IMG/VR virus record: IMGVR_UViG_3300046009_002077
Coordinates: 1-31,570 of that record
Strand: one strand, 5' to 3'
Length of the DNA stretch: 31,570 nt
DNA from: a virus
Part shown: positions 1,744-30,375 of the stretch, piece by piece
How the letters are laid out: each line of letters starts with the position of its first letter
Position numbering within the stretch: position 1 is the stretch's first letter
Notes under the pieces: model-generated
The model's input: only the letters and a program-made list of their open reading frames with translations
What the model was told of the DNA's origin: nothing
Database searches by the model: none
Position numbers and translations under genes: made by a program

Positions 1744-1783
1744 AAAATTTATCATTGCTATATCGTTGTTGCTATAGTATAAT
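1744..1783 (+). promoter_or_regulatory. Sigma70-type promoter for HNH and portal (P1)
   Basis: An AAAATTT box at 1744 is followed by ATCATTGCTA, giving a -35 TTGCTA at 1755-1760. After exactly 17 nt comes a perfect TATAAT at 1778-1783. The spacer carries a second copy of TTGCTATA at 1769. It shares its layout with six other promoters in the window and is the weakest of them at the -35. Confidence 0.8.
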
Positions 1784-1811
1784 ATAACCAGTATTAAAGA
1801 TAGGAGTAGTT

Positions 1812-2318
1812 ATGGCTGCTAATACTAATAAGCGCATCCCAATCAAATGGATTAGAGACGGAGCTAAGTCGGCTTATGACAAAAAAGACCGCTGTTACAT
1901 ATGTGATAGCAAAGAAGAGTTGGAGCTGCATCATACACATGGTCTAACCAACTTACTAGAGAAGTGGGCTAAGGAGAATCAGATTCCGTTGAGCACTGAT
2001 GAAGAAGTTTTAGATATTCGCGACAGGTTTATTGAAGAGCATCATAGAGAGATTTATGATGAGGTTTTTACTCTCTGTGCGAATCATCACAAAAAGCTGC
2101 ATCTTTTGTTTGGCAAATCACCAGCTCTTAGTTCAGCACAAAAGCAAACCCTATGGGTTTTAAAACAAAAGGATAAACATAATGGAATTGAAACAATTAA
2201 ACCCAATGAATTGGTTCACCAAGGAGAACAGAGCCCAAGAGAGTATCGCACGCTCGGAGGGGTCTTCAGTGGGCTCATATGCAATAACAACAGTTTTTCA
2301 AGCCTTCGAACGTCTTGA
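1812..2318 (+). CDS. HNH endonuclease, packaging-associated
   Basis: This 168-residue protein has a zinc-binding HNH (beta-beta-alpha metal) nuclease core. A CYIC pair (C28, C31) is followed by LELHHTHGL (H40, H41), a helical insertion, and LCANHHKKLH (C89, N91, H92/H93, H97). HNH proteins encoded beside the terminase and portal act in some phages with the terminase in DNA cutting during packaging, and that role fits this position. The start ATG follows GATAGGAGTAGTT, a good ribosome site, and lies 29 nt after the P1 -10 box. The last 46 residues are read from DNA that also encodes the portal N-terminus in another frame; they look low in complexity and may be dispensable. A free-standing homing endonuclease is the main alternative. 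Confidence 0.85.
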   Translation: MAANTNKRIPIKWIRDGAKSAYDKKDRCYICDSKEELELHHTHGLTNLLEKWAKENQIPLSTDEEVLDIRDRFIEEHHREIYDEVFTLCANHHKKLHLLFGKSPALSSAQKQTLWVLKQKDKHNGIETIKPNELVHQGEQSPREYRTLGGVFSGLICNNNSFSSLRTS

Positions 2319-3378
2319 ATCCGTAAATAGAGGAACTAGTATGATCGTCTCTGGCGCGGCTAGTTTCGATTATGACGTAAAAGATAAAGTTACCGATGGT
2401 GTTGTTAATGGTATAAGACTCAAGACCCTTGAGAAACTTATTAACTTCGAACCTAATCCGTATCAATCTATACAAGAGTTCAGAACTAATATCTTCATGG
2501 ACTTTATTTTAGAAGGCAATGCGTTCATCTACTTTGATGGTAGATACATGTATCACTTGCCTTCATCTAAAGTAACTATTGAGCCTGATGAAAAGACACA
2601 CATCAAATGCTTTAGATACATGAACGAAATCGTGTTTAGACCAGACGAAGTGTTCTATTTTAGTGACGTATCTCGCAAAAGTATTTACCGCGCTGATAGT
2701 AGATTGGCATCTAGCCTTAGAACTATTAATACCCTGTATAAGATGCAACAGTTCCAAGAATCTTTCTTCGAGAACGGTGCTATACCAGGGTTAATTTTAG
2801 AGACTGAGAATACTCTATCACAGCAAGCTAAAGTACGTACTATCAATACATGGAAACAGAACTACAACCCTAAAGGCGGAGCACGCAGTCCGATGATCGT
2901 AGACAACGGGCTCAAGCTTAAGGAAATGTTCCACGTATCCTTCCAAGACTTAGACTTCGATAACTCTATCACTAGACACGATTACAAAATTCTTACAGCT
3001 TTAGGAGTTCCACAGGTTCTTATTGATGGCGGAAACAACGCTAACATTAGCCCGAACCTAAGATTGTTCTATCTAGAAACAATCCTACCTATAGTTAATA
3101 AGTACACATCTGCAATGGAAAGGTTCTTCGGGTTCGATATTAGCCCAATCCAAGCCAATGTATCGGCACTGCAACCAGATATGAAGGACGTAGCAGCTTA
3201 CCATTCATCACTAGTAAACGGTGGTATTGAGAAGCCTAACGAAGCTAGAGCTGAGTTGAGATTGCCTGCAGTAGAAGGTCAGGATATGGATAAGATTAGA
3301 ATCCCAGCCAACATAGCAGGCTCGGCAACCAATCCAGACACAGGGGGAGCCCCTAAGAAGGATAAACCAGCCGAGTAA
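2182..3378 (+). CDS. Portal protein, HK97 type
   Basis: This is the dodecameric ring at the capsid vertex through which DNA enters and to which the tail is joined. The 398-residue protein has a typical HK97-family layout. It has an N-terminal segment ending in GSYAITTVFQAFERLESVNR and a central stem/wing region with an LGVPQVLIDGG-type stretch at about 275-285. The C-terminal crown carries NGGIEKPNEARAELRLPAVEG, the usual family signature. The ATG at 2182 has an AAAGGA ribosome site 8-9 nt upstream and sits inside the HNH gene. This start was chosen because the residues before the next methionine (44) include conserved portal sequence. The C-terminus is a disordered GGAPKKDKPAE tail. A strong bidirectional terminator follows at once. 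Confidence 0.93.
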   Translation: MELKQLNPMNWFTKENRAQESIARSEGSSVGSYAITTVFQAFERLESVNRGTSMIVSGAASFDYDVKDKVTDGVVNGIRLKTLEKLINFEPNPYQSIQEFRTNIFMDFILEGNAFIYFDGRYMYHLPSSKVTIEPDEKTHIKCFRYMNEIVFRPDEVFYFSDVSRKSIYRADSRLASSLRTINTLYKMQQFQESFFENGAIPGLILETENTLSQQAKVRTINTWKQNYNPKGGARSPMIVDNGLKLKEMFHVSFQDLDFDNSITRHDYKILTALGVPQVLIDGGNNANISPNLRLFYLETILPIVNKYTSAMERFFGFDISPIQANVSALQPDMKDVAAYHSSLVNGGIEKPNEARAELRLPAVEGQDMDKIRIPANIAGSATNPDTGGAPKKDKPAE

Positions 3379-3379
3379 C

Positions 3380-3416
3380 AAAAAGCCCGTTAAACATTTA
3401 GTTTAACGGGCTTTTT
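3380..3416. terminator. Bidirectional intrinsic terminator between convergent genes
   Basis: A perfect 16-bp inverted repeat (3380-3395 with 3401-3416) with a 5-nt loop, flanked by AAAAA on the left and TTTTT on the right, lies between the portal stop and the convergent ClpP-like stop. It can terminate transcription in both directions. Confidence 0.95.
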
Positions 3417-3417
3417 C

Positions 3418-4002
3418 TTATTCTGATTCCTCCTCTTCTAAAGGAGCAGCAGAAGCTTCTCTAATTTCATTACGTTTCTTACATCTAGCCATAAACTCTA
3501 TGTCGTCCATGTAGAAATCAGTACCAGATAGCATTCTATCAATTTCTTCTTCTGTAAAGAAGTCCTTATAGATGTCTCTAGTTAGTCTATTGCTTAAAGA
3601 CATGGTGTGGTTCACGTGATTAGCTACATTATTACCAGGCCCTCCGCTACCAAATTGTACTTGATGGCACATTACAGTTGCGAATTCGTTGATGCTAATG
3701 CTGTCAGCACGCAGCAAAGGAAGGGTTCCGGCACTAGCAACATCAGACATTGCATGTACGTGTACATGACATCTAGCGTTATTCATAGCCCCAAGTAGAG
3801 GAAGTATAGCATGTAATGCTCCCCCCACAGTTGATATATTCATGGTAAATACATCGTTTTCCTCAGCCTCCTCAAGTATAGCTACAATATCATCAAACTG
3901 CTTAGTATCAACGAATTCCTCATCAATATTTACAGTATATCTGATACCATTTGGTACGCCTCTTACTAAGAATGGTTTTATCTCTGTTTGTTTACTATCC
4001 AT
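3418..4002 (-). CDS. ClpP-like serine peptidase (S14/crotonase fold)
   Basis: This 194-residue protein resembles the proteolytic subunit of Clp. It has an oxyanion-type glycine segment STVGG at 57-61, a nucleophile region SDVASAGTLPLLRAD with S90, and a histidine region ATVMCHQVQFGSGG with H113. The third catalytic residue is probably an aspartate in SGTDFYMDD (D162, D166 or D167). The C-terminus is an acidic tail ending LEEEESE. It is the second gene of a minus-strand pair, starting just after the PhoH-like stop with an AGGA inside the end of that gene. Phage ClpP homologues often act as head maturation proteases. Here a separate HK97-type protease is fused to the capsid gene, so its substrate is unclear. 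No Clp ATPase is present in the window. Confidence 0.82.
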   Translation of the reverse strand: MDSKQTEIKPFLVRGVPNGIRYTVNIDEEFVDTKQFDDIVAILEEAEENDVFTMNISTVGGALHAILPLLGAMNNARCHVHVHAMSDVASAGTLPLLRADSISINEFATVMCHQVQFGSGGPGNNVANHVNHTMSLSNRLTRDIYKDFFTEEEIDRMLSGTDFYMDDIEFMARCKKRNEIREASAAPLEEEESE

Positions 4003-4003
4003 A

Positions 4004-4741
4004 TTAATGTCCTATAGAGTCATACGCCATAATAAGACCTTTACACAATGGACCCCTAACGATATGATCGTATTCATCAAAATCGATGTGAGTTGCATAT
4101 TGTTGCAAGTTCTCGTTATTGTCTACTAGTTGCATCAAAGTGGACAAACCATTTGCCTTCGGCAAACAACTTTGTGTAACGTCACCACATAAAACCATCT
4201 TGGCACCACCAGCTCTAGTGACAATTGATTTAATTTCTTCGATTGAGCAATCCTCACACTCATCCGCGATAACCCAAGTATGTTTCCCGTAACTCATACC
4301 CTTAATAGATTCCAACGGCTGTAATGTGATGTTCCCATCCATGATAGCCAGATCGACAACTGGTTTACCCAATCTCATATAAAGAACAGATAGCATAGGC
4401 ATAATCCATTGCATCATTTTCTCATTAGTATCCCCTTTAGTAAAACCAAGACCTTTGCTTGACGACATAGCTGGTCTAGCTAATACTATTCTAGAAATAC
4501 GTCCTGATTTAAATGCGTCTGCAGCCATGCAACACGCAATAAATGTTTTGGAGGTTCCGGCATAGCCGGTAGCTACAATCAAATCATAGTTCTTGATAGC
4601 TTGGATATACTCTTCCTGTCTATCGTTCATGGCTTGGATTGGGGCTAATGCTATCTCTCTTTTGGCAGCCGCTACAAACTTTTCAGCTTTAGGTGGCTTA
4701 ACTTCTTCACGCTTTCTATTACTACGGGAATTACGACTCAT
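4004..4741 (-). CDS. phoH: PhoH-like ATPase
   Basis: This 245-residue protein is a P-loop ATPase of the PhoH family, related to RNA helicase-like domains. A basic, arginine-rich N-terminus (about 1-30) precedes a Q-motif-like MNDRQEEYIQAI. Walker A is GYAGTSKT at 59-66, Walker B is WVIADECED at 155-163, and GDVTQ at 186-190 fits the sensor motif after it. PhoH proteins are common in phages, but their role in infection is not settled; nucleic-acid processing or phosphate-stress functions are proposed. The gene has its own promoter on the minus strand and an AAAGGA ribosome site 6 nt before the ATG. It is followed within a few bases by the ClpP-like gene, so the two are probably co-expressed and may act together. 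Confidence 0.9.
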   Translation of the reverse strand: MSRNSRSNRKREEVKPPKAEKFVAAAKREIALAPIQAMNDRQEEYIQAIKNYDLIVATGYAGTSKTFIACCMAADAFKSGRISRIVLARPAMSSSKGLGFTKGDTNEKMMQWIMPMLSVLYMRLGKPVVDLAIMDGNITLQPLESIKGMSYGKHTWVIADECEDCSIEEIKSIVTRAGGAKMVLCGDVTQSCLPKANGLSTLMQLVDNNENLQQYATHIDFDEYDHIVRGPLCKGLIMAYDSIGH

Positions 4742-4786
4742 TTAAAGTCCTTTAGGTTGGTTGAAAAAAGTACTGCACTGATTAAG

Positions 4787-4828
4787 AGTATATTCCAAAT
4801 GCTGCCCAAAGTCAAATATGAAATTTTT
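4787..4828 (-). promoter_or_regulatory. Sigma70-type promoter for the PhoH/ClpP genes (P2)
   Basis: Read on the minus strand, AAAATTTCATATTTGACT gives an upstream AT box and a -35 TTGACT (4810-4815). A 17-nt spacer leads to TATACT (4787-4792). It lies 46 nt upstream of the PhoH start. Confidence 0.82.
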
Positions 4829-4849
4829 ATAATGCTGGAAAAATTTCAT
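4818..4849. repeat. 11-bp inverted repeat between divergent promoters
   Basis: ATGAAATTTTT (4818-4828) and its exact reverse complement AAAAATTTCAT (4839-4849) are separated by 10 nt. Each arm is the upstream box of one of the two outward-facing promoters, so a dimeric regulator or the RNA polymerase alpha subunits could contact both symmetrically. Confidence 0.85.
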
Positions 4850-4880
4850 CATTGACCCTCGCCAACTCAACTAGTATAAT
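4839..4880 (+). promoter_or_regulatory. Sigma70-type promoter for the capsid operon (P3)
   Basis: AAAAATTTCATCATTGACC holds the upstream box and a -35 TTGACC (4852-4857). After 17 nt there is a perfect TATAAT (4875-4880). It is followed by an untranslated leader of about 60 nt before the leader ORF and capsid gene. Confidence 0.88.
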
Positions 4881-4948
4881 TAGTAATATTAAAACATACG
4901 AAAAATTATCTCCTAATTTAGGAAATAGTAAACTTTAGAAGGGTGAGA

Positions 4949-4966
4949 ATGGCAATGTATGGATAA
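4949..4966 (+). CDS. Possible five-codon leader ORF (MAMYG)
   Basis: ATGGCAATGTATGGATAA begins 6 nt after the only good ribosome site here (GAAGG, about 4938-4942). Its stop overlaps the start region of the protease-capsid gene in another frame. The main ATG at 4959 lies about 15 nt from that site, which is too far for normal initiation, so translation may reach it by reinitiation. The ORF is real in sequence, but its expression is inferred. Confidence 0.35.
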   Translation: MAMYG

Positions 4967-6869
4967 CAAAAAGGTACTGTATCTTGATAGTACTTTTACC
5001 AAATCCGATACTATGGACACGGATCAGTCAATTTTTATTGAAGGATACGCAAACACAGTAGATACTGACAGAGCTGGCGATATTATATTAGCTAGTGCAT
5101 GGTCAGCCGGAATGGTAAACTATCTAAAAAACCCTGTAATACTAGCCTATCATGACCACGATGATCCAATCGGTAGAATGGTAGAGCATAGAATAGACGC
5201 GAAAGGTCTATGGGTAAGAGTAAGAATTAGTCCAGCAGCTAAGGAAGTGTACGATCTTATTAAAGATGGTATTTTAACTGCCTTTAGTGTAGGATTTAGA
5301 GTTAGTGATGCTACGTATGACTCTGTAGCTGATATATTCGTTATTAAAGCAATTGAATTAATGGAAATATCTGTTGTAAGCGTACCATGCAATCAGGAGA
5401 GCTTGTTCTCCTTAGCAAAGTCTTTTGAGTCTAGTGTAGACCTCGAAAGTTTTAAAAACCAGTTTGCCACAAAGGCTACCCTTGATAATAGTCAAGAACC
5501 TAATACGCAAATTACAAATAAACAAACCAAAGGAATTACAAAAATGGACGAATTAGAAATTCAAGCTATGGTAGCTAAAGCAACAGCTGAAGCAGTAGCA
5601 AAAGCAAATGCAGAGCGCGATGCTATCGAAGCTCAAAAAGCTGCTACTGTCGCAGCAGAAAAAGCACTCAACGACAAAATTACAGCAACTGTAGCAGCTA
5701 CTGTTAAGACAGCTGAATCAGGCGCAGAAAAGCTATTGGCAGAAATCGAAAAGCGTTTCGCTGACCAAGAAGCTACATCTAAATCCGTTCTTGAGGGATT
5801 GCAAGCATCTATCAAAGAAAAAGCAGCTGAATTAGAAGTTATCACTAAGTCAAAAATGAAGTTCGATATGACTGGTGACGTAGAAAAAGCACTTAACGAC
5901 AAAGAAATCGAAACTGCTGTTCTATTGAAAACTTTCATGAACAAATCAGCTATTGGCGATACTAAGTTCGGTAAGCAATTGCTAGAAAAAGCCGGTGCTC
6001 ACGTTCCAGGCGCAGTACCATGGGAACAACAAGTTTCCTTGAATATGGAAAATGAAATCCGTAGACGTTTGGTAGTTCAATCTTTAGTACGTCAAGTTGC
6101 GATGCAAACTAACGTTATGAAGATGCCATTGAACCCAATTGCTGGTTTAGGTACATGGGTAACTAACGCACAATTTGGTACATCGAACTCTTCAGGTGCG
6201 GCTCAAACTCACCAATTAGCGGAAATCACACTTAGTGCGTACAAAGTTTCTACAAAAGAATACTTAGCATACGAAGAAGAAGAAGACTCATTGTTAGTTC
6301 TTCTACCAATCATTCGTGATGCAATGGTACGTCGTGTGGCTCGCTCAGTTGATTTAGCATTCTTACGTGGTGCTGGTGCTGGTGCAGATCCAGTAAAAGG
6401 TTTAGCAGCATACGCTACAGCTAATACTACTAGCGCAGTAGGCACAGCAATCACAGTAGCTAAACTACGTGAAATGCGTAAAAACCTTGGTATCTTCGGT
6501 CTAGATCCTTCAGAAGTAACTTATGTTGTTTCTCAAGACGTTTACTACGACTTGCTAGATGATCCAGTGTTCCAAACAATGAACCAAGTAGGTACACAAG
6601 CTACTCTATTAACTGGTCAAATTGGTCAAATAGGTAACTCTCCAGTTATCGTATCTGGTGAATTCGAAGACAAAGCAGCTACTAAGATCGGTGCTATCGC
6701 CGTTAATACTAGCAACTTTATCGCTGGTAACCAACGCGGTCTACGTTTCGATACACAATCTGACGCAGAAAATCAACGTAACATCCTAGTAGCTTCTCTA
6801 CGTACTGGTATGACTCAGTTGACTTCTACACAAGGTCAAGGCGTATCTAAGTTGACTTGGACAGCTTAA
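4959..6869 (+). CDS. Prohead protease-scaffold-major capsid protein fusion (HK97 type)
   Basis: One 636-residue frame joins functions that are usually separate. Residues 1 to about 155 are an HK97-type prohead protease: AYHDHDDPIGR with H65, GILTAFSVGF with S110, and LMEISVVSVPCN with E136 form the expected His/Ser/Glu set. Residues about 196-300 are an alanine/lysine/glutamate-rich coiled coil like the scaffolding delta domain. Residues about 301-636 are the HK97-fold capsid subunit, with LSAYKVSTKEYLAYEEEEDS and the later SVDLAFLRGAG segment. The first usable ATG in frame is 4959, because a stop lies in frame at 4944. An internal start at 5544 with its own ribosome site would make the capsid part alone (441 residues). 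Self-cleavage should release mature capsid protein. Confidence 0.93.
   Translation: MDNKKVLYLDSTFTKSDTMDTDQSIFIEGYANTVDTDRAGDIILASAWSAGMVNYLKNPVILAYHDHDDPIGRMVEHRIDAKGLWVRVRISPAAKEVYDLIKDGILTAFSVGFRVSDATYDSVADIFVIKAIELMEISVVSVPCNQESLFSLAKSFESSVDLESFKNQFATKATLDNSQEPNTQITNKQTKGITKMDELEIQAMVAKATAEAVAKANAERDAIEAQKAATVAAEKALNDKITATVAATVKTAESGAEKLLAEIEKRFADQEATSKSVLEGLQASIKEKAAELEVITKSKMKFDMTGDVEKALNDKEIETAVLLKTFMNKSAIGDTKFGKQLLEKAGAHVPGAVPWEQQVSLNMENEIRRRLVVQSLVRQVAMQTNVMKMPLNPIAGLGTWVTNAQFGTSNSSGAAQTHQLAEITLSAYKVSTKEYLAYEEEEDSLLVLLPIIRDAMVRRVARSVDLAFLRGAGAGADPVKGLAAYATANTTSAVGTAITVAKLREMRKNLGIFGLDPSEVTYVVSQDVYYDLLDDPVFQTMNQVGTQATLLTGQIGQIGNSPVIVSGEFEDKAATKIGAIAVNTSNFIAGNQRGLRFDTQSDAENQRNILVASLRTGMTQLTSTQGQGVSKLTWTA
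5530..5546 (+). promoter_or_regulatory. Internal ribosome binding site and start for free major capsid protein
   Basis: AAAGGAATTACAAAAATG places an AAAGGA 9 nt before an in-frame ATG (5544, residue 196 of the fusion), exactly where the protease linker ends and the delta-like coiled coil begins. Initiation here would give a 441-residue scaffold-capsid protein in excess over the protease fusion. Confidence 0.75.
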
Positions 6870-6881
6870 TATTAAGTAATT

Positions 6882-6910
6882 AAATAGTGGGGCGAAAGCC
6901 CTACTATTTT
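6882..6910 (+). terminator. Hairpin A after the capsid gene, GAAA tetraloop
   Basis: A 12-bp stem with one G-U pair (6882-6893 with 6898-6909) is closed by a GNRA-type GAAA loop and followed by a short TTTT. It is probably a partial terminator or an mRNA-stabilising structure that lets the capsid gene outproduce the joining genes. Confidence 0.6.
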
Positions 6911-6942
6911 ATAAGCGCATACTGTGTGCTTATAAAATAGTA
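6902..6942 (+). promoter_or_regulatory. Hairpin B, alternative to hairpin A, just before the next ribosome site
   Basis: An 18-bp stem with one G-U pair (6902-6919 with 6925-6942) and loop TACTG shares bases 6902-6909 with hairpin A, so both cannot form fully. Its 3' arm ends just before the AAAGGA ribosome site at 6942-6947 of the next gene. This looks like a read-through or translation switch. Confidence 0.6.
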
Positions 6943-6953
6943 AAGGATATAAA

Positions 6954-7523
6954 ATGGCAACTAATTTAGTAAGCTTATCAGAAGTAAAAGCATATAAAGG
7001 TATTACCAATAGTACCGAAGACTCAGAACTAAACCTACTAATAACAAAAGCCAGCACTTTAGTAAAAACCTACATAGGTAGAACCCTAGTAGACTACTAC
7101 ACTACAGAAAAAACAGAAGTGTTTGGTGATAGTACAAAACCTCTATCTTTAGTAGAAATGCCTATAGCAGAAGTTAGCTCAGTGGAGTTCTCTTTAGACT
7201 ATGGTAGAAACTATACCAGTTTAGTAGAGTTCGACGATTATGTTATAGACCAAGAATTTGGGACGTTAGATATCATAAACCCGTCCTACACTGGTAAGAA
7301 AGTAAACGTACTAAAGGTTACTTATACTGGTGGATACCCTAAAGCTCCAGAGGATTTAAAACTGGCTGTTATGGATTTAGTTATGTATTATCAAAAAGCA
7401 GAGATGGCTGTGAAGTCCTCTAGAGCTCCAGGCGCTAATAACGCTCAGATAGAATATGTAATGAATACTACGCTACCAGCACACATTCGTAGAATACTAG
7501 ACTTATACAGGCTGGATCTATGA
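6954..7523 (+). CDS. Head-tail connector, HK97 gp6-like adaptor
   Basis: This 189-residue protein has the character of the adaptor ring that binds under the portal. The N-terminal helices LVSLSEVKAYKGITNSTEDSELNLLITKAS are typical of gp6-like connectors (short helix, acidic turn, long helix). A beta-rich middle (EVSSVEFSLDYGRNYTSL) and the phrase VTYTGGYPKAPEDLKLAVMDL also recur in this family. It is the first gene after the capsid, the normal place for the adaptor. The start has AAAGG 8 nt upstream, directly after hairpin B. The stop overlaps the next start as ATGA, suggesting coupled translation. Confidence 0.83.
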   Translation: MATNLVSLSEVKAYKGITNSTEDSELNLLITKASTLVKTYIGRTLVDYYTTEKTEVFGDSTKPLSLVEMPIAEVSSVEFSLDYGRNYTSLVEFDDYVIDQEFGTLDIINPSYTGKKVNVLKVTYTGGYPKAPEDLKLAVMDLVMYYQKAEMAVKSSRAPGANNAQIEYVMNTTLPAHIRRILDLYRLDL

Positions 7524-8203
7524 GCAAGCTTTCAGATAGCATATTTGGTAAGTTATCTGAGCTGCTAAAATCATCTACAGATGATCTAAAAGAATTTGGT
7601 AGTATAGATAAAGTATCGGAGTACTCATCCATCAGCGAAAAACAGGATGTAATCAGAAGAATAACTGTTACAGTAAACCCTGAGGACGCTAAGCTAGTGC
7701 GATCTGCTGTAAGATCAGGAAGTAAAGAAATAGTACAGCCTGATATGTTGGCTGACATAAACAAATTATTCACAGATTTAATTGTTGGAAATACTCCTAA
7801 ACAGAAGCCAAAAAAGGTAACCAAGGAGTCAGCAAACAAGACCTCTACTAGGTTGCGCGGCCCTTCAGGTAGGTTTATAAGCCTATTTACCTTGAAAGAT
7901 CTACTGAACAATAAGCTAGCGGAGCAGATAAAAATAAATATGGGTAAAGGTAACGCCAAAGCTATACTTAATTATAGAACTGGCAGGTTTGCCCAAAGCG
8001 CAATTATTAACCAACTTAGTAGAACGAAAGAAGGTACACTAGTTGCTTTTTACACATACATGCATTATCCTTACCAAACCTTTGAACCAGGCTTTAAGCA
8101 GGGACTACCCTTAAGTAGAGATCCTAGGTTATTAATAGGCAAGAGTATAAGGCAGCTAGCACAAGAGATAGCTAGTTCAAGACTTAAGGCAATCCCAACA
8201 TGA
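7520..8203 (+). CDS. Putative neck or tail-completion protein
   Basis: This 227-residue basic protein lies between the adaptor and a probable tail terminator, where head-closure and neck proteins are encoded. Its N-terminal half is helical and charged. A low-complexity basic linker (PKQKPKKVTKESANKTSTRLRG) falls near residue 95-118. The C-terminal half, with ILNYRTGRFAQSA and YMHYPYQTFEPG, is the more conserved-looking part and resembles gp10-like neck/tail-completion proteins. It overlaps both neighbours by ATGA junctions and so belongs to a tightly coupled joining-protein set. No catalytic motif is seen. The role is inferred from order and general similarity. Confidence 0.6.
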   Translation: MSKLSDSIFGKLSELLKSSTDDLKEFGSIDKVSEYSSISEKQDVIRRITVTVNPEDAKLVRSAVRSGSKEIVQPDMLADINKLFTDLIVGNTPKQKPKKVTKESANKTSTRLRGPSGRFISLFTLKDLLNNKLAEQIKINMGKGNAKAILNYRTGRFAQSAIINQLSRTKEGTLVAFYTYMHYPYQTFEPGFKQGLPLSRDPRLLIGKSIRQLAQEIASSRLKAIPT

Positions 8204-8634: not shown

Positions 8635-8643
8635 GTACGATAC

Positions 8644-8655: not shown

Positions 8656-8695
8656 TGTTGGTTATCTAATTAATACACCAAAATAAGGAAATAAA

Positions 8696-11110: not shown

Positions 11111-11150
11111 AAAATTAATCATTGACATTAAGCTAGTGCGATAGTATAAT
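11111..11150 (+). promoter_or_regulatory. Sigma70 consensus promoter for the tape measure gene (P4)
   Basis: AAAATTAATCATTGACA carries the upstream box and a perfect -35 TTGACA (11122-11127). A 17-nt spacer leads to a perfect TATAAT (11145-11150). The start site should lie near 11157, giving a leader of about 38 nt. Confidence 0.92.
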
Positions 11151-18455: not shown

Positions 18456-18497
18456 AAAATTTTTAACCTTGACACTGACCAAGTCTAGTGTTATAAT
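18456..18497 (+). promoter_or_regulatory. Sigma70 consensus promoter for hub and fibre genes (P5)
   Basis: AAAATTTTTAACC precedes a perfect -35 TTGACA (18469-18474). After 17 nt comes a perfect TATAAT (18492-18497). The ATG of the next gene lies 25 nt further on. Confidence 0.92.
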
Positions 18498-18522: not shown

Positions 18523-20163
18523 ATGACAACCTTATCCTCAGTAGAAATAACAGCTTGGTTAAACAACGAGTCAGCTATAAGGGGCACCCTTATAGAGGTA
18601 GATGTACTAGTTTCCGGAGTAGAAACAACTAGGTATTTATCAACCTTCCCCTACACCACAGCCCCAACGGATACGCCAGCTAATACGTATTACGACCCTA
18701 TAGTGTCAAGAGGCGTATCCTACACAGAGTCTATGGACTATACTGGTAGCGGTAGCGGTAGTATGCTAGCAGGGGATATAGAATTAAATAACTTTTCAGG
18801 TGAATACGATTCATGGCTAAACGACGTATGGACTAATAGAAACATTAGAGCATATATTGGTGATGTTAGCTGGACTAGAGATAAGTTTATACAAATACTT
18901 GACGGTGTGTTAGTTGGCATCGATAGCAAAAATCCAAATGTGCTTAACTTAAAGATTAGAGAAAAGCTGCAAAGGCTAAATACGCCTATAAGTGAGATAA
19001 ACTATAGCGATATTTACCCATATCCAGATCATGTAAACACTACACCACATTACGACCCATCAGACCCTAATAGTACTGTTCCCGATGTATTTATGCCTCA
19101 CGCCTTTGGCGAAGTGCATAATATTACCCCTGTACTAATAGATCCAGCGAGAGTTAAATACTCGCTTAGTTATATGGGTAATATAGGAGTTATAGAAGTC
19201 AGAGATAATGGCATCCCACTTAGAGAGGAGGATTATGAAGTAGATACTGCTAGAGGAATACTTACTTTAAAATACCTTAATGCTGGCACCATAACGGTTA
19301 GTCTTAGAGGTTCGTTAGCGTACTCAGCACCAAGCTTAATAAAGAACCTAGTACAATACACTGGCAAAGTTGTACCTAATCCAGTCACCGGAGGACCTAC
19401 TACTAGGAGCACTACTAATTTAATACCAAATACTGGTATAGGTTTTCCTATCATAACACCCTCTCCAGATAGGTTTGTAGACGGTGTGGATATAGATTCC
19501 GCTAATTTTGATAACATGATCTCCAGTAACTCTCAGGTAGTGGGATTGTTCGTATCCCAGAAAGAAAACCTATTGAGTACCTGTCAGGCCTTGGCTGCTA
19601 GTATAGGTGCGTCAATGGTTACTACCAGGTCTGGTAAGTTAAGGCTGGTTAAGCTAGCTAGCCCTCCTACCGGCACACCATTCGTTATAGACACTTCTAT
19701 GTATAAGTACAACTCCCTACAAATAATAGACCGTACAGAAATACTTGGGGCTATAAAGTTGGGATTTAATAAAAACTGGACAGTACAAAAAGAGCTAAAA
19801 ACTAATATTCCACCAAAACATAAGGAGATGTTTGCAGAAGAGTGGAGTACTGTCAGTGTATTTAATCCAACGGCTTTGTCTCAACATAAGCTAACTGGAT
19901 TACCTGTGGTGCAAAATACGCATTTACAGGTTTTATCTGATGCCAATGTGGAAGCCAATAGGAGGCTGCAACTATGGAGCCAACAGCATACAGTTTATAA
20001 AATAAGTGGGTTCTCCCCGCTTTTAGATTTACAGATAGGCGACACCGTTCAATTAGTTGGTCCAAGGTACGGACTAACCGGTGCGTTGGGGATAGGGTTA
20101 GGGACCGTAGTTATGCTACAACCTAATTGGACAACTGCAACAGTAGAAGTAGGAATATTTATA
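18523..20163 (+). CDS. Putative tail-tip hub / baseplate protein
   Basis: The 547-residue product follows the tape measure, where distal tail and hub proteins are encoded. It is beta-rich. The early part (GVSYTESMDYTGSGSGSMLAGDIELNN, then RAYIGDVSWTRDKFIQILDGVLVGI) resembles hub domains of contractile and non-contractile tails that define a curve or frame. The later part (LLSTCQALAASIGASMVTTRSGKLRLVKL, then FSPLLDLQIGDTVQLVGPRYGL) resembles the gp27/gp44-like hub cores of siphophages. The ATG at 18523 has ATAGGAGTACTT before it. An in-frame TTG at 18469 lies inside the promoter and is rejected. No catalytic motif is seen. The hub role is likely, the exact family uncertain. Confidence 0.62.
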
Positions 20164-23762: not shown

Positions 23763-23781
23763 GTTAAATACTCTACAAGTT

Positions 23782-23825
23782 AAAATTTTTTTATCCTTGA
23801 CTAAGTATACCATATAAGGTATACT
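23782..23825 (+). promoter_or_regulatory. Sigma70-type promoter for tail-tip, fibre and lysis genes (P6)
   Basis: An AAAATTT-led AT run precedes ATCC and a -35 TTGACT (23797-23802), then 17 nt and TATACT (23820-23825). No terminator separates it from the fibre gene, so it adds to read-through from P5. Confidence 0.85.
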
Positions 23826-23828: not shown

Positions 23829-23859
23829 CTTTATAAATTCAATATGCAACGGGATTAAG

Positions 23860-24696
23860 ATGCCATCATTACGTATAATATACGACAACTTAGCTGATTC
23901 TGGAACTGTGACGGCTACCAGTACAGCTGGTAGCCTAGCGGCTACAAATATGCAAATAGATAAGAAGTCAAAGGTTTGGAGAAGTGTTGGCACTACAGCA
24001 ACTCTTAAATGCTCTTGGAGTAGTTCCAAGAGCATAAATAGTATAGTTTTTGCTTTCTGCAATTTTTCTTCTACAGCTACTGTAGTTGCCAGACTATATG
24101 ACACTACAGTGGGAGGAACTCCATTATACACTTCCCCAAGTACCTTAATTACTCCTAGCGTGTCTGCAGAATACTGGGGTAATGGATCACAACCACTAGG
24201 AGTAAATTCGTACTCCTATGGGTTCACACAGCATGCTAGACTTTGGTTAGCTAATACATACACTACAGTCAAAAGAATAGAATTAGATGTGACCGATACT
24301 TCAAATACCTCAGGGTACCTAGAAGTGTCTAGACTTATACTTGGCAACTATTGGGCTCCAACATACAATACAGGTTTCGGAATCCCCATGACCAGTGTGG
24401 ACGCAGGCACACAAACTAGAGCTCAATCTGGTGATTTAGTGTCATCTGTAAGCTATAAATATAAGAAACTATCTATAGATTTAGCATGGATGCTGGCACC
24501 TGATAGGGTTAGGTTGCAATCTATGTTGCAAAATAATGGTATATCCAAGGGTGTGTTTCTAAGTGTATTCCCAGAAGATACAGACCCATTTAAGGAACAG
24601 ACGTACCAGATTTATGGTAAGCTACCCAATTCCGTAACTATAAGCCATCCAATGCATACAATCTACTCAACACAAATAGAATTAGAAGAGGTATAA
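23860..24696 (+). CDS. Putative tail-tip protein
   Basis: This 278-residue protein is beta-rich and lies between the long fibre and two shorter fibre genes. The first half, with threonine- and serine-rich strands and KVWRSVGTTATLKCSWSS, then SINSIVFAFCNFSSTATV, looks like a galactose-binding or discoidin-like jelly roll. The second half, with YKYKKLSIDLAWMLAPDRVRLQ and GVFLSVFPEDTDPFKEQTYQ, looks like the ring-type fold of distal tail proteins. It has no signal peptide or catalytic motif. The ATG has GGGA 5 nt upstream and lies 34 nt after the P6 -10 box. The gene ends one base before the next ATG. A tail-tip attachment role is inferred. Confidence 0.6.
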   Translation: MPSLRIIYDNLADSGTVTATSTAGSLAATNMQIDKKSKVWRSVGTTATLKCSWSSSKSINSIVFAFCNFSSTATVVARLYDTTVGGTPLYTSPSTLITPSVSAEYWGNGSQPLGVNSYSYGFTQHARLWLANTYTTVKRIELDVTDTSNTSGYLEVSRLILGNYWAPTYNTGFGIPMTSVDAGTQTRAQSGDLVSSVSYKYKKLSIDLAWMLAPDRVRLQSMLQNNGISKGVFLSVFPEDTDPFKEQTYQIYGKLPNSVTISHPMHTIYSTQIELEEV

Positions 24697-24697
24697 A

Positions 24698-25747
24698 ATG
24701 GCTACTAGGAGACCCTTAGTAAATATAGGCGGGGTGCTGCAGGAGATGCCAGCAACCGACGCGGTATATAGATCAGACGAGATAAATGTAACTAATGATG
24801 CTACTAATCCTTCAGCAGTATACCCAGTTCTAGTTCCTAGCACTGGGGGATACACAGCGCCTACAATTGCAAGTGCAAAAATTTCATTTGTACCAAGTAC
24901 AGGCACCCTTACTAGTTTAAGATTTTCCGGTAGTTTAATTAGACCTACCAGTGGGGTATTAACTGCAGCCGGAACTACTCAAGCTACTGGTTTAGCTCTT
25001 ACTTCTGATGTAAACTATATTGGCACTACAGCTGCAAATACTGGTGTAGTACTTCCTGCACCAATAGTAGGCAAGAAGATTAAAGTTATAAATCGCGGAG
25101 CAAGTGATCTTAGAGTATACCCACCTACTGGGAGTAATATTGATAACTTAGCAGCAAATGCCGCAATTATTTTACCAACACTTGGCGTGCTTGAGGTAAC
25201 AGCTAATACTACTACACAGTACAACTCAACATCAAACTCAGCTACTGGATTAAGGGGTGTTGTACCAGGTACTAATGGTGGTACTGGTGTAAATAACAGT
25301 ACCAGAACTATATCATATGCTGGTAACGTTGCCTTTACAGGAGCGTTTACGTTCTCTGGTGCGCTGACTGCGAACACTTCGATTACGTTCCCAACTACGG
25401 GCACGCTTGTAAGTACAACAGTTGCTCAGACTCTAACCAATAAAACATTTACCGGGTACACTGAGACAACGTATGCGCTTGCAGGTACAGATATTGCGGT
25501 AGCTAACGGCACTATCCAGAGAAAAACTCTGACAGCAAATACGACTTTTACAGAAACATTGGCAGATGGTCAATCTGTAGTGTTACACATAAACCCCGCT
25601 ACATTCACAGTCACGTGGCCTACAATAAGTTGGATTAACGCTGCTGGGACTAATACTGCTCCAACACTTAAAGCATCTGTATTGAATGTTATAGTAATCT
25701 GGCAAGACAACGGAGTTCTATATGGAAACTGGATAGGGAGCTTATAA
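24698..25747 (+). CDS. Putative short tail fibre protein
   Basis: This 349-residue protein is rich in threonine, serine, glycine and asparagine, as trimeric beta-structured fibres are. The N-terminus RRPLVNIGGVLQEMPATD is a common start for phage tail-fibre proteins that plug into the tail tip. The middle has repeated NTGVVLP and VYPPTGSNIDNL-type strands. GLRGVVPGTNGGTGVNNSTRTISYAGNVAF leads into a shaft and then FPTTGTLVSTTVAQTLTNKTF, a phrase widely shared among phage fibres. The last 120 residues use different codons from the first part (more ACG, GCG and CTG/CTT), suggesting exchange of the distal tip. Its stop overlaps the next start (TAATG). Confidence 0.72.
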   Translation: MATRRPLVNIGGVLQEMPATDAVYRSDEINVTNDATNPSAVYPVLVPSTGGYTAPTIASAKISFVPSTGTLTSLRFSGSLIRPTSGVLTAAGTTQATGLALTSDVNYIGTTAANTGVVLPAPIVGKKIKVINRGASDLRVYPPTGSNIDNLAANAAIILPTLGVLEVTANTTTQYNSTSNSATGLRGVVPGTNGGTGVNNSTRTISYAGNVAFTGAFTFSGALTANTSITFPTTGTLVSTTVAQTLTNKTFTGYTETTYALAGTDIAVANGTIQRKTLTANTTFTETLADGQSVVLHINPATFTVTWPTISWINAAGTNTAPTLKASVLNVIVIWQDNGVLYGNWIGSL

Positions 25748-27642
25748 TGTTTTTAGCTAATAAATTAGTGGGGGCTGGGGTCGCAGAAAAAACCTATGCT
25801 GACGACGTATTCTCCACTTATTTGTATACAGGTAGCGGCTCTAGCTTAGTCATCAATAACGGTATCGATCTTGTAGGTAAAGGGGGCATGATTTGGGCTA
25901 AAAAACGAAGTATTGCAGCTAATGCCAGCATAGTAGATACTGCAAGAGGTAAGGAATACCAGTTGTATCCTGACGGAACAAATGCTCAGGGGTACAATGC
26001 TTCCCTATATTCCTCATTTAATAATAACGGCTTTACGGTGGAAGTCGGCAATAGTGAAAGTGGTACCTCGTATTGCTCGTGGACTTTTCGCAGAGCAGCT
26101 AAGTTTTTTGATATTGTTACATACACTGGCACGGGGTCCGGACAAACAGTAGCTCACGGGCTAACCTCTACCCCTGGAGTAGTTCTGATAAAAAGCACCG
26201 GTTCTAGTGGTACTAACTGGGCTATTGCCTGCTACCTAGGTAGTGCTAGCAATTATGCTTACTGGTCTGGTAGTGGTCCAGGACTAAACGGAACAGCAGC
26301 GGCAACCTCCGCCTCCTTTAATTCATCTTCGTATATAGGTAGTACATCTATAAATACAGGGCTATTTTCAGCTTTAGCTGTAAGTGCGCCGCAAACACAT
26401 GTAGCTTACCTCTTTGGGCACAATACTTCTACGGATGGGATTATTAGGTGCGGCTCTTATATTGGCAACGGTAATACAATAGGACCAGCAATTGATCTTG
26501 GGTGGGAACCACAGTGGCTGATGGTAAAAAATGTATCCGGATTAGGGTCTTGGAATATTATAGATAACTTGAGAGGTTTTACATATGATGGATTAGACCA
26601 AGTTATCCAAGCAAATAGTACAGCAGTAGAAACTGAACAGACTTACATCGGTATCCGTTCAGATGGCTTCCAAGTTGTATCGACTTCAAGCGAAGTTAAT
26701 ACGAGTGGGGCTACCTACGTATACATGGCAATCCGTAGATCTAATAAGCCGCCTACGAGTGGCGCCAGTGTTTTTACTGTAGACAATGCTACTGGCTTTA
26801 CAGATGCCCCAACAATAGCTAAGCAAGACCTGTTTATTAGTGCCATTCGCTCATCAGCGAATGGGTACACTCCTGCGGGTTTTTCTTGGGGTGACCGTGT
26901 AAGGGGGTATGGCTCCAGTAGTACAAAAACCATAAATTCTTCAAGTACTGCTAGTGAAGTCGAGGACACCATGTTTCCGTTTGGTGTTAGTGGGTATGTT
27001 TGGAATGCTGGTGGAGGTTTTCCAAGGATTACTTATCGAATTAAACGCGCAGTAGGCTTCTTCGACATAGTCGGATATAAGGGGACTGGTGCTGCTCAAG
27101 ACGTTAAACATAACTTATCTGTGCTCCCTGAGTTGATACTGCTTAAAAACAGAACTACTAACGGGATGAGTTGGAAGTTTAGGTACAGTGCAGGGGAGGG
27201 CAACTTAACGAGTGATGTGGCTGGCGGTATCTTCGCCTTGCCATCAGTTAGCGCTACTACGTTTTCTATAGGACAATTTGCTGGATCAGACCTTAACGCG
27301 TCTGGGGGGGATTTTGTAGCGTACCTATTCTCTACCGTACTCGGCATCTCAAAAATAGGTACGTATCTAGGCAACTCTTCTAATCGCACGATCGATTGCG
27401 GGTTTTCTGCTGGTGCTAGGTTTGTCATGATAAAACGTACTGACGCTGCAGGGGATTGGTATGTATTTGATACAGTGCGCGGTATCACAGCTTCAGAAGG
27501 GACTACGCCATATATATTACTGAACTCGGCTGCAGCCGAGTCGTATGGTGGGATTACATCTGCTGCAGCTGGGTTTGCTTTGTCTAATACCACATCACTA
27601 AATGTAAACGGCGCAACCTACATCTTTTTAGCAATTGCTTAA
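25747..27642 (+). CDS. Tail protein with DUF7483-like repeated domains
   Basis: This 631-residue protein is built from repeats. One pattern, FFDIVTYTGTGSGQTVAHGL, returns as FFDIVGYKGTGAAQDVKHNL. A second, RCGSYIGNGNTIGPAIDLGW followed by PQWLMVKNVSGLGSWNIID, returns as SKIGTYLGNSSNRTIDCGF followed by ARFVMIKRTDAAGDWYVFD. This is the layout of DUF7483-type phage tail proteins, thought to be distal virion components facing the host. The N-terminus (FLANKLVGAGVAEKTYADD) is probably the attachment part. The start overlaps the previous stop, with AGGGAG upstream. No sugar-cleaving active site is evident, so binding rather than depolymerase activity is the safer reading. Confidence 0.72.
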   Translation: MFLANKLVGAGVAEKTYADDVFSTYLYTGSGSSLVINNGIDLVGKGGMIWAKKRSIAANASIVDTARGKEYQLYPDGTNAQGYNASLYSSFNNNGFTVEVGNSESGTSYCSWTFRRAAKFFDIVTYTGTGSGQTVAHGLTSTPGVVLIKSTGSSGTNWAIACYLGSASNYAYWSGSGPGLNGTAAATSASFNSSSYIGSTSINTGLFSALAVSAPQTHVAYLFGHNTSTDGIIRCGSYIGNGNTIGPAIDLGWEPQWLMVKNVSGLGSWNIIDNLRGFTYDGLDQVIQANSTAVETEQTYIGIRSDGFQVVSTSSEVNTSGATYVYMAIRRSNKPPTSGASVFTVDNATGFTDAPTIAKQDLFISAIRSSANGYTPAGFSWGDRVRGYGSSSTKTINSSSTASEVEDTMFPFGVSGYVWNAGGGFPRITYRIKRAVGFFDIVGYKGTGAAQDVKHNLSVLPELILLKNRTTNGMSWKFRYSAGEGNLTSDVAGGIFALPSVSATTFSIGQFAGSDLNASGGDFVAYLFSTVLGISKIGTYLGNSSNRTIDCGFSAGARFVMIKRTDAAGDWYVFDTVRGITASEGTTPYILLNSAAAESYGGITSAAAGFALSNTTSLNVNGATYIFLAIA

Positions 27643-27650
27643 GGAATAAT

Positions 27651-28241
27651 ATGGAACTTTATAACATCGCAAACCAAACAACCTGTACTGAACAGGAGTT
27701 TAGAAATACTTTCCCTAATACTAGTTTTCCTGAGATTCTTCTTGTAGACACCCTTGAAGAATTTGGGTACAAACCAGTATTAGAATCACCTCAGTTACCT
27801 TGCCAATCTTACGAGATAGTAGTACGTGATGGTGTAACCATTGACGCTAATGATAACGTAGTCAAGAAATGGAAAGTCATTCCAATGTACACAGAATATG
27901 TGGATGGGAATGGTGTCGTTCACACGGTACAAGAACAGATTGATGCACACATTGCTAGGGATGCTGAAGCACGGGCATCCGAAGCTAGAAATCAAGCTAA
28001 AGTAACTAGGCAATCTGCGGTGGATGCGATTAAAGTCACCACCTCAACTGGAAAAACTTTTGATGGGGACGAAACTTCCCAAACTCGTATGGCAAGAGCA
28101 ATCATTGCATTGCAAGCTATGGGAGTACCCACAGTAACTTGGGTGTTAGCAGATAATACTTCGACCCAGGCAACCATAGCCGAACTTGTAGAAGCCTTAG
28201 CCTTAGCTGGTGCAGCTCAAGCTAATATTTGGGTGATATAA
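27651..28241 (+). CDS. DUF4376 protein, fibre-associated
   Basis: This 196-residue protein has a C-terminal DUF4376-like domain. KVTTSTGKTFDGDETSQTRMA starts it at about 127, and ALQAMGVPTVTWVLADN follows, ending in an alanine-rich helix AELVEALALAGAAQANIWV. The N-terminal half (FPEILLVDTLEEFGYKPVLE and YEIVVRDGVTIDANDNVVKKWKV) resembles proteins encoded just after tail fibres, some of which help fibre assembly or sit at the fibre tip. A helical, alanine/arginine-rich linker (DAEARASEARNQAK) joins the two. AAGGA lies 5 nt before the ATG. The domain call is fairly sure; the role is inferred from position. Confidence 0.75.
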   Translation: MELYNIANQTTCTEQEFRNTFPNTSFPEILLVDTLEEFGYKPVLESPQLPCQSYEIVVRDGVTIDANDNVVKKWKVIPMYTEYVDGNGVVHTVQEQIDAHIARDAEARASEARNQAKVTRQSAVDAIKVTTSTGKTFDGDETSQTRMARAIIALQAMGVPTVTWVLADNTSTQATIAELVEALALAGAAQANIWVI

Positions 28242-28501
28242 TGAACGAGCTAGGACGCAGAGTAAAAAACTTCGCCATATGTCTAGATCAGTTACTATAC
28301 TCCATTATCACTTTAGGTAATGGAGACCCTGATGAAACATGCTCTAGCGCAGCATGGAGAATGGAAGTAGACGGTAGATTTTTTGGATTTTTTAGACCAG
28401 TAATAGATGCTATCTTTTTCTGGGATAAAAACCACTGCTACGAAAGCTATAAAAGCGAAACAATAAGAGCACTGTTTGTGAAAGACCACTACAATAAATA
28501 G
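28241..28501 (+). CDS. Conserved small phage protein near lysis genes, function unknown
   Basis: This 86-residue protein has the pattern LGRRVKNFAICLDQLLYSIITLGNGDPDETCSSAAWRMEVDGR then FFRPVIDAIFFWDKNHC and KSETIRALFV. I recognise this type as a small protein often found beside phage lysis genes and often annotated without function. Two moderately hydrophobic stretches (residues about 10-25 and 48-63) suggest peripheral membrane contact. The ATG at 28241 overlaps the stop of the preceding gene as TAATG. An upstream TTG at 28229 in the same frame lacks a better ribosome site and is not used here. The function is unknown. Confidence 0.7.
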   Translation: MNELGRRVKNFAICLDQLLYSIITLGNGDPDETCSSAAWRMEVDGRFFGFFRPVIDAIFFWDKNHCYESYKSETIRALFVKDHYNK

Positions 28502-28509
28502 GATGATAT

Positions 28510-28839
28510 ATGGACATAGGAAGCTCCTTAGGGGAAACAGTAGGGATCGTGGGAGTAGCTATAGTTACTTTGGCACTGGGTGCACAGCAATTGTTAAAAC
28601 GATGGAAAACAGGTAGCGCTGAAAACAGCATCCTAACATTGCTACACTCAGAACTAGAAAGGATGGCTACTCAGAATAAGTTGCTTTCTAGTTATGTTAA
28701 TGCCTTGCAGATAGAAGCAGTTAAGATAAATTCGGAACTTGCTAAGCTACAGGTAGAGAATAAGAAGCTGCACACGGAAGTATTAATTCTTACAAACGAG
28801 TTAATAAGCATGAGAAGAGTGCTAGATAAGAAAGGCTAA
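28510..28839 (+). CDS. Small membrane protein with coiled coil, lysis region
   Basis: This 109-residue protein has one N-terminal membrane segment (about 10-28, ETVGIVGVAIVTLALGAQQ) followed by KRWK, which suggests an inside-facing positive stop. The rest is a long coiled coil (SELERMATQNKLLSSYVNAL and onward, leucine- and glutamate-rich). Single-TM coiled-coil proteins in lysis cassettes can be holins, antiholins or spanin-like proteins. Here a two-TM holin and a spanin pair are encoded downstream, so an accessory or antiholin role is possible. AGGATGATAT precedes the ATG. No family is recognised with confidence. Confidence 0.65.
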   Translation: MDIGSSLGETVGIVGVAIVTLALGAQQLLKRWKTGSAENSILTLLHSELERMATQNKLLSSYVNALQIEAVKINSELAKLQVENKKLHTEVLILTNELISMRRVLDKKG

Positions 28840-28840
28840 T

Positions 28841-29239
28841 ATGAAAATCACATTAGTACGAAGCAAAGAGATTGGGAATGCTACACCAGGTATGCTATAT
28901 TTAGATAATAAGTTATTTTGCTATACACTTGAGGATGTAAGTCGTCCTGTCAAAGTATATGGTAAAACAGCTATACCTAAAGGCAAGTATGTTGTTAAAC
29001 TTACAATGTCTAATAGGTTTAAAAAAGTAATGCCACTGTTGCTAAATGTACCTAATTTCGAAGGTATAAGGATCCACGCTGGAAATACCTCTGAAGATAC
29101 AGAAGGCTGTATTCTTGTAGGTACGCAAAGTTCAGTAGTAGCAGGCAATTATAATGTATTAGGTAGCAGAGATGCTTTCTCTAAGTTGATGGCTATTCTA
29201 ACCCCTTATAAAGGAGAAATAGTTATGGAGATAAAATGA
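28841..29239 (+). CDS. DUF5675 protein, candidate peptidoglycan-acting lysis protein
   Basis: This 132-residue protein matches the DUF5675 pattern: GMLYLDNKLFCYTLEDVSRP near the start, AIPKGKYVVKLTMSNRFKK in the middle, and FEGIRIHAGNTSEDTEGCIL at about 73-92, with H79, E88 and C90. The HAGN...DTEGCILVG motif recalls the His...Gly-Cys active site of YkuD L,D-transpeptidases. It stands between a membrane protein and the holin, where an endolysin is expected, and no other endolysin is seen in the window. It has no signal peptide, so export would rely on the holin. The family call is good; the lytic role is inferred. Its stop overlaps the holin start as ATGA. Confidence 0.8.
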   Translation: MKITLVRSKEIGNATPGMLYLDNKLFCYTLEDVSRPVKVYGKTAIPKGKYVVKLTMSNRFKKVMPLLLNVPNFEGIRIHAGNTSEDTEGCILVGTQSSVVAGNYNVLGSRDAFSKLMAILTPYKGEIVMEIK

Positions 29240-29469
29240 GAAACATTAAGAAGAAACTAGTTGGGGCTAGAAGATCAAAAACTGTACTATTTAATAGTAT
29301 TATGGCTGTTCTTCTACCATCTATAATTTATGCGCAGGAAATGCTGCCTATATTAAAGGAATTACTAACACCAGAAGCCTATCAAGCAACTGGACTGGCA
29401 GTAGTTATTATAAATATAGTCCTTAGATTCAAAACTGACAATAGTTTGGATAACAAGCATGATCAATAG
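29236..29469 (+). CDS. Putative holin (two membrane segments)
   Basis: This 77-residue protein has a basic N-terminus (MRNIKKKLVGARRSK) and two hydrophobic segments at about 17-33 (VLFNSIMAVLLPSIIYA) and 52-64 (TGLAVVIINIVLR). A charged C-terminal tail ends NSLDNKHDQ. A loop LPILKELLTPEAYQ separates the segments. This is the pattern of a small phage holin family found beside spanin genes; holins open the inner membrane at a set time. The ATG overlaps the previous stop and is preceded by GGAGATAAA. The size, topology and cassette position agree. An antiholin reading is possible given the other membrane protein at 28510. Confidence 0.75.
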   Translation: MRNIKKKLVGARRSKTVLFNSIMAVLLPSIIYAQEMLPILKELLTPEAYQATGLAVVIINIVLRFKTDNSLDNKHDQ

Positions 29470-29785
29470 TACTATATTAAAGTACCTTCTATCAGCAACT
29501 CTGGCTGTATCAGTGCTATACTCAATGTATGATTATGTTTATGATAGGGGGTACGCAGCTAAAACTTTGGAAGTGGAAACTTACCAAAGAAAGCAATCAG
29601 AAAATATCGCGGCACTGTCTAAAACCTTGGCTAATTTACCAGCCGAAGTAGTGCTAGAATACGACAAAGTTTACGGTAGCGTGTTAGATGATATTAAAAA
29701 CAAGCCATTATACATAGTAAGTAAGGATGGTAAATGTCAACCAAGTAAGGACTTCGAGAAAGCTTATAGGAGCTTACTGAAATGA
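29459..29785 (+). CDS. Inner-membrane spanin (Rz-like)
   Basis: This 108-residue protein has an N-terminal membrane anchor (about 8-24, KYLLSATLAVSVLYSMY) and then a periplasmic helical part (GYAAKTLEVETYQRKQSENIA, AALSKTLANLPAEVV). It ends in a short segment with one cysteine (DGKCQPSKD). This is the type II layout of Rz-like i-spanins, which join with an outer-membrane partner to fuse the two membranes in the last step of lysis of Gram-negative cells. It overlaps the holin gene by 11 nt and the outer spanin gene by ATGA. The identity rests on topology and on the lipoprotein encoded next to it. Confidence 0.78.
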   Translation: MINSTILKYLLSATLAVSVLYSMYDYVYDRGYAAKTLEVETYQRKQSENIAALSKTLANLPAEVVLEYDKVYGSVLDDIKNKPLYIVSKDGKCQPSKDFEKAYRSLLK

Positions 29786-30036
29786 AATATATACTAGCAG
29801 TTCTACTGCTAACTGGGTGCTGTTCAGCACCGATTGTTCATCCTACAGAACCAATAATCATAGACAGTAGAATATTGGAGAAGTGCAAACCACAAGTGTT
29901 ACCAGAGTCCACATTAACTTACGAGTCAATTTTAGAGAATGTTAAAGATAATTCAATTCTCTATAAAGAGTGTTCTGCAAAGAATGATGCTGCTATCACT
30001 TTAATTAAGAAGTTAACTAACCAGAAGGATAAGTAA
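29782..30036 (+). CDS. Outer-membrane spanin lipoprotein (Rz1-like)
   Basis: This 84-residue protein starts with a lipoprotein signal (MKYILAVLLLTGCC) with the lipobox LLTGC, so cleavage should leave C13 as the lipidated first residue. A proline-containing stretch follows (APIVHPTEPIII), then a helical, charged C-terminus. Together with the gene just upstream it fits an i-spanin/o-spanin pair that bridges inner and outer membranes. Unlike lambda Rz1 it is not nested inside the Rz gene; it merely overlaps it by ATGA. An outer-membrane lipoprotein implies a Gram-negative host. Confidence 0.85.
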   Translation: MKYILAVLLLTGCCSAPIVHPTEPIIIDSRILEKCKPQVLPESTLTYESILENVKDNSILYKECSAKNDAAITLIKKLTNQKDK

Positions 30037-30037
30037 T

Positions 30038-30286
30038 ATGACAACAGTTATTAGATACATCAACAACACTAATCAAGATGTTGTTGCGGGAAGTTTCACA
30101 GTACCTAAGCATGACCAGTTAATAGTAAATGATTTTATTCAGCCACTGGATGCTCTGGCAGGGAAAAGCCTATTAGTATTAGTAGATGGAGTTGAGTTGC
30201 ATCCAGACCTAGTTCCGGCTAATATACCAACAGCTATTCTTGCTACTCCAAGAATGAAAGAGAAATTAGTTGACGTTACAGAGTAG
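30038..30286 (+). CDS. Small conserved phage protein, function unknown
   Basis: This 82-residue protein starts one base after the outer spanin stop, with AAGGATAAG at the end of that gene as ribosome site. It begins with a short beta pattern (TVIRYINNTNQDVVAGSFTV, then KHDQLIVNDFI) and contains SLLVLVDGVELHPDL. It has no signal, membrane segment or catalytic motif. It could be a small virion or cement protein, since the next genes look structural, but this is only a guess from position. Confidence 0.55.
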   Translation: MTTVIRYINNTNQDVVAGSFTVPKHDQLIVNDFIQPLDALAGKSLLVLVDGVELHPDLVPANIPTAILATPRMKEKLVDVTE

Positions 30287-30291
30287 TAGTG

Positions 30292-30322
30292 ATTATAGCC
30301 CCTTCTATGGGGCTATAATTTT
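30292..30322 (+). terminator. Intrinsic terminator after the lysis block
   Basis: ATTATAGCCCC (30292-30302) pairs exactly with GGGGCTATAAT (30309-30319), with a 6-nt loop and TTTT to 30322. Promoter P7 follows. Confidence 0.93.
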
Positions 30323-30333
30323 ATGTGGGTATT

Positions 30334-30375
30334 AAAATTATTATCATTGAAATATATTACCTAAAGTGGTATACT
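30334..30375 (+). promoter_or_regulatory. Sigma70-type promoter for the last operon (P7)
   Basis: AAAATTATTATCATTGAAA carries the upstream box and a -35 TTGAAA (30347-30352). A 17-nt spacer ends GG before TATACT (30370-30375), as in P6. The next ATG lies 35 nt downstream. Confidence 0.85.

Follow-up and report, generated by a model that had tools for sequence, protein, structure and literature searches.

The UP element of rrnB P1, a ribosomal RNA promoter of Escherichia coli, is the textbook case of its kind. Either the distal or the proximal subsite of a UP element can act alone (PMC4390567), and a canonical UP element centred at -49 is also found at N25, a promoter of bacteriophage T5 (PMC12464699). 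In T5, the host sigma70 polymerase serves all temporal classes of genes. Strong sigma70 promoters precede early and late genes alike in this phage, and the cause of the switch between them is unknown (PMC7472727).

We analysed an uncultured virus contig of 31,570 bases, hereafter the window, which is probably a fragment of a phage genome. It encodes the small and large terminase, an HNH-like protein, and the portal. The head and tail genes include a fused protease/major head protein, connector proteins, the major tail protein, tail chaperones, a tape measure protein (about 2,400 amino acids), and tail and fibre proteins, while ClpP-like and PhoH-like genes occupy the minus strand. PHROG and tblastn matches assigned the TerL, portal, head, major tail, and tape measure genes to the T5-like type. 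The TerL of the window is 46-48% identical to those of T5-like phages of Pectobacterium, Vibrio, and Erwinia, and 59-74% identical to those of 80 uncultured relatives. Judged by this gene content, the window is the late module (packaging, head, and tail) of a distant T5-like phage.

Some features of the gene content deserve mention in their own right. The ClpP-like and PhoH-like genes (3418-4741) sit between the portal and the head genes. This insert is missing from two relatives (G002 and G003), and the PhoH and Clp genes of T5 lie in the early region, unlike those of the window. The head maturation protease and the major head protein are apparently fused in one reading frame of 636 amino acids (4959-6869). 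A protein of 349 amino acids (24698-25747) had no PHROG match, and similarity to fibre-like proteins, from a few environmental phages, is confined to its end.

The original prediction described seven matching promoters, P1 to P7, and all of them were found at the positions given in Table 1, with exactly 17 nt separating the -35 from TATAAT or TATACT in every case. Their -35 and -10 hexamers match the sigma70 consensus at 10-12 of 12 positions, and the assignment of P1-P7 to promoters of the host sigma70 (housekeeping) type is well supported by these sequence features. The proposed division of the -10 into TATAAT and TATACT does exist, at a ratio of 4:3, but nothing was found that links it to function, and two functional types of promoter thus found no support. 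The string said to join the upstream box to the -35 held in part. The pattern ATC[AC]TTGA (ATCATTGA or ATCCTTGA) is exact in four of the seven sites (P3, P4, P6, and P7), and differs in P1 (ATCATTGC), P5 (AACCTTGA), and P2 (ATATTTGA). Taken base by base, the four positions before the -35 are A in 7/7 sites, T in 6/7, C in 6/7, and A or C in 6/7. A T at -26/-25 is present in six sites, partly as the tail of a terminator.

Table 1 Promoters, terminator-like hairpins, and inverted repeats of the window
Feature	Position	Strand	Box	-35	-10	Unit or description
P1	1744..1783	+	AAAATTT 1744-1750	TTGCTA 1755-1760	TATAAT 1778-1783	HNH-like gene (1812) and portal
P2	4787..4828	-	AAAAATTT from 4828 down	TTGACT 4815-4810	TATACT 4792-4787	PhoH-like and ClpP-like genes, minus strand
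P3	4839..4880	+	AAAAATTT 4839-4846	TTGACC 4852-4857	TATAAT 4875-4880	Fused protease/major head protein and onward, to tail chaperones
P4	11111..11150	+	AAAATT 11111-11116	TTGACA 11122-11127	TATAAT 11145-11150	Tape measure gene (ATG 11195)
P5	18456..18497	+	AAAATTT 18456-18462	TTGACA 18469-18474	TATAAT 18492-18497	Tail genes (ATG 18523)
P6	23782..23825	+	AAAATTT 23782-23788	TTGACT 23797-23802	TATACT 23820-23825	23860-30286
P7	30334..30375	+	AAAATT 30334-30339	TTGAAA 30347-30352	TATACT 30370-30375	30411 onward
Terminator-like hairpin before P1	1703..1728	+
Terminator-like hairpin before P4	11053..11084	+
Terminator-like hairpin before P5	18416..18442	+
Terminator-like hairpin before P7	30292..30319	+
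Inverted repeat, P2/P3	4818..4849					11-bp perfect; facing boxes ATGAAATTTTT / AAAAATTTCAT
Inverted repeat, P6	23801..23828					Perfect, 11-bp arms, 6-nt loop; CTAAGTATACC-ATATAA-GGTATACTTAG

Four promoters (P1, P4, P5, and P7), rather than the five that had been claimed, follow a terminator-like element made of a hairpin and a run of T's. P2 and P3 form a divergent pair, and no hairpin resembling a terminator is predicted from the DNA preceding P6. Inverted repeats with arms of at least 11 bp are in excess in the window, which has six of them (that of P6 included) against 0-1 in each of ten shuffles. The repeat at P6 covers the spacer and the -10 in an operator-like manner, and it is possibly a repressor site. 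The repeat shared by P2 and P3 keeps its A-tract in the relative L105, where the outer CAT of the P2 side is not kept. A further inverted repeat, with 15-bp arms, lies at 6902-6942, in the intergenic stretch that precedes the gene for the head-tail adaptor.

The upstream box AAAATT starts 11, 12, 12, 11, 13, 15, and 13 nt before the -35 in P1 to P7, respectively, as predicted, so that its offset is not fixed. The window holds 18 sigma70-like matches (at least 10 of 12 positions, spacer of 16-18), and AAAATT at 11-15 nt before the -35 occurs in 7/7 of the named sites and 0/11 of the others (Fisher p 3e-5). In promoter coordinates the box of all seven, AAAA(A)TTT, falls at about -41 to -50, inside the region where A/T-tracts define a UP element (about -60 to -38). 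With intergenic regions of 63-75% A+T, such boxes might be thought a by-product of base composition, an explanation that we regard as barely credible. Dinucleotide-preserving shuffles of the 40 nt upstream seldom gave the box (probability of 0.007-0.068 per site), and the product of the seven probabilities is 8e-13 if independence is assumed, though P2 and P3 have upstream DNA in common. The box is therefore in excess over equally AT-rich DNA. Moreover, seven of the 11 intergenic AAAATT on both strands of the window occupy the box place, and the position of the box is kept in relatives despite sequence divergence. These sequence comparisons confirm the seven sites as real, conserved, and non-random.

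To obtain a model independent of the window, a matrix was built from 47 late-region promoters of relatives only, and both strands of the window (about 63,000 positions) were scanned with it. P5, P7, P3, P2, P4, P1, and P6 took ranks 1 to 7, in this order, with scores from 33.0 to 13.2 and the next position at -0.3. The upstream part of P6 alone scored poorly under this matrix. By this measure, the intergenic DNA of the window has no strong promoter-like site other than P1-P7.

The same arrangement recurs in the relatives, where 66 of 69 rightward sigma70-like matches downstream of terL (at least 11 of 12 positions required) have a 17-nt spacer. Box-promoters directly after terL are counterparts of P1, and those that precede the tape measure gene, at a distance of about 8.4-9.7 kb from terL, are counterparts of P4. 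P2 and P3 are both kept in L105 (PhoH 81% identical), with the same A-tracts, hexamers, and spacing among otherwise varying bases, and P3 is identical in L104. The gene at 18523, downstream of P5, has one distant relative, which lacks a matching promoter, and no relative was found of the gene at 23860, hence P6 had no ortholog for comparison. Across 51 non-redundant late promoters of relatives, A peaks at -13 to -9 and T at -8 to -6 before the -35, as in the window, and no strong distal UP signal appeared in this set. ATCA beside the -35 is stricter in the window than in the relatives, where it is not conserved.

Since the window's 31.6 kb are late region, the occurrence of the box at promoters of other classes was judged from relatives and from T5. 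We collected 23 leftward intergenic promoters from three long contigs of relatives, picked by TTG, 17 nt, and TATAAT alone, with no box required. The leftward strand of the relatives carries replication genes, and two of the three contigs encode proteins homologous to T5 D5 and to the D6 helicase. An A-to-T stretch precedes the -35 in 20 of these 23 promoters, against a shuffle mean of 2.2. In T5, such a stretch lies 8-13 nt before the -35 in 20 of 26 annotated early promoters of the TTGC type, and A-tracts precede the -35 of the late promoters PG25 and P42 as well. Likewise, AAATTT lies 10 nt before the -35 of rrnB P1, the sequence of which was matched at >=99% in 5,374 E. coli records. Where early and late phage promoters and a host rRNA promoter have a box in common, the simplest reading is that it contacts the alpha subunit of host RNA polymerase, and such a box cannot alone mark late genes.

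This result goes against the part of the original prediction in which a phage factor reads the box. In one such reading, a late factor would bind the AAAATT..ATCA element and bring host RNA polymerase to late genes only. In its favour, the box is uniform in the window and conserved at the late promoters of relatives, the ATCA extension varies little among the seven sites, and two relatives encode a homologue of D5, a T5 protein whose annotation is that of a DNA-binding protein needed for transcription of late genes. Yet the same A-to-T box stands before replication-side and T5 early promoters, the spacing between box and -35 shifts by 4 nt, and ATCA is without conservation in relatives. The hexamers are also near consensus, so that no activator would be needed. 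With -35 elements of this quality, the sites did not resemble late promoters that depend on an activator or a phage sigma factor (Mu Mor/C, T4). We consider a late factor of this kind quite unlikely. We also give little credence to a broader version, in which the late promoters of this clade are a class for a phage-modified host polymerase and the box, ATCA, and a D5-like protein together set late timing. Nevertheless, the strictness of ATCA in the window is not explained by a UP element alone.

A-tracts can bend DNA, and the box could act through bending or flexibility of the DNA instead of direct contact with alpha. The loose sequence of the A-tract would suit such a role, but most sites have a single A-tract per promoter, located where rrnB P1 has its proximal UP subsite, and we find this mechanism improbable.

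Use of host RNA polymerase for the late genes, as originally predicted, is well supported by the near-consensus sigma70 hexamers, their conservation, the T5 precedent, and the lack of matches to Pfam sigma70 regions 2 and 4 in eight relatives' contigs, which are possibly fragments. A search for homologues of T5.026, an RNA polymerase binding protein, found none in the relatives (tblastn at E 0.1). The UP-like character of the box is also borne out, as it matches T5 promoters and, in rrnB P1, the proximal part of the UP element in both place and A-to-T pattern.

Based on these findings, we think it very probable that P1-P7 act as strong sigma70 promoters of the host type, each aided by a proximal UP element, and that timing is set elsewhere. 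Each promoter would head one transcription unit of the late module, from a start predicted by its position. Sigma70 would read the -35 and -10, while the C-terminal domain of the host alpha subunit may bind the AAAA(A)TTT stretch (about -41 to -50), a contact expected to raise the strength of each promoter. The terminators before four of the promoters would keep the units separate. The switch from early to late genes would then come from something other than the box. Template amplification is one candidate cause, and another is a phage protein that acts on early promoters or on RNA polymerase.

The relatives also display a different promoter array. In their genomes, a leftward gene block lies directly upstream of the terminase genes, and most of its gaps hold a rightward, and thus antisense, sigma70-like promoter whose spacer is 18 nt and whose -10 lies inside the long palindrome CCAAAATTATATGnTATAATTTTGG, followed by GGCGCC (e.g., at 4412, 5192, 7411, and 8188 of L063). 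About 160 such sites lie upstream of terL in L005-L082, and many have a hairpin of varying sequence within a few bases downstream. TTGAC is found 17-18 nt upstream in 152 of 166 sites picked by the -10 and GGCGC alone. The AAAATT box is rare among them (2/99, compared with 32/51 late promoters; Fisher p 4e-17). The antisense promoter occurs in at least 120 stretches of IMG/VR, gave no good match in cultured phage records, and is absent from the window. We rejected these sites as early promoters, since gene mapping shows that they point against the leftward genes; they are not a sense early class, and sense leftward promoters were used instead. This array is stranger than P1-P7 and is a finding separate from them.

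These observations indicate that, for its late genes, a distant, uncultured T5-like branch has retained the arrangement of T5, in which strong promoters of the host type carry a UP-like element. Because the box is common to both classes of promoters in the relatives as well, we no longer regard it as a timing signal, and attention shifts to other features such as the -35, the discriminator, or phage proteins.

The closest described counterparts are the strong promoters of T5 (N25, H207, G25, J5, and others; Gentz and Bujard 1985, as relayed in PMC7472727), which share with P1-P7 the sigma70 hexamers, a spacer of 17 nt, and, 8-13 nt before the -35, an A-to-T stretch. The two phages would also be alike in having late genes read by host polymerase (PMC7472727). 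T5 early promoters differ by a weaker -35 (TTGCTT/TTGCTA), whereas the sites of the window have a TTGAC-type -35 in 5/7 cases, the ATCA extension, and a box 1-3 nt further out. The AAATTT of rrnB P1 lies at nearly the same offset, but this promoter has a distal subsite too, a 16-nt spacer, and a weaker -35, and the late promoters of the relatives have no conserved distal subsite. The middle promoter Pm of phage Mu is likewise a phage promoter whose only UP subsite is of the proximal type; it differs in needing the activator Mor and in having its subsite displaced to about -53 to -55 (PMC4390567), whereas the window has good -35 hexamers. It is well supported that P1-P7 are of a kind already known, used by T5 and its host, and represent the expected case and not a new control system.
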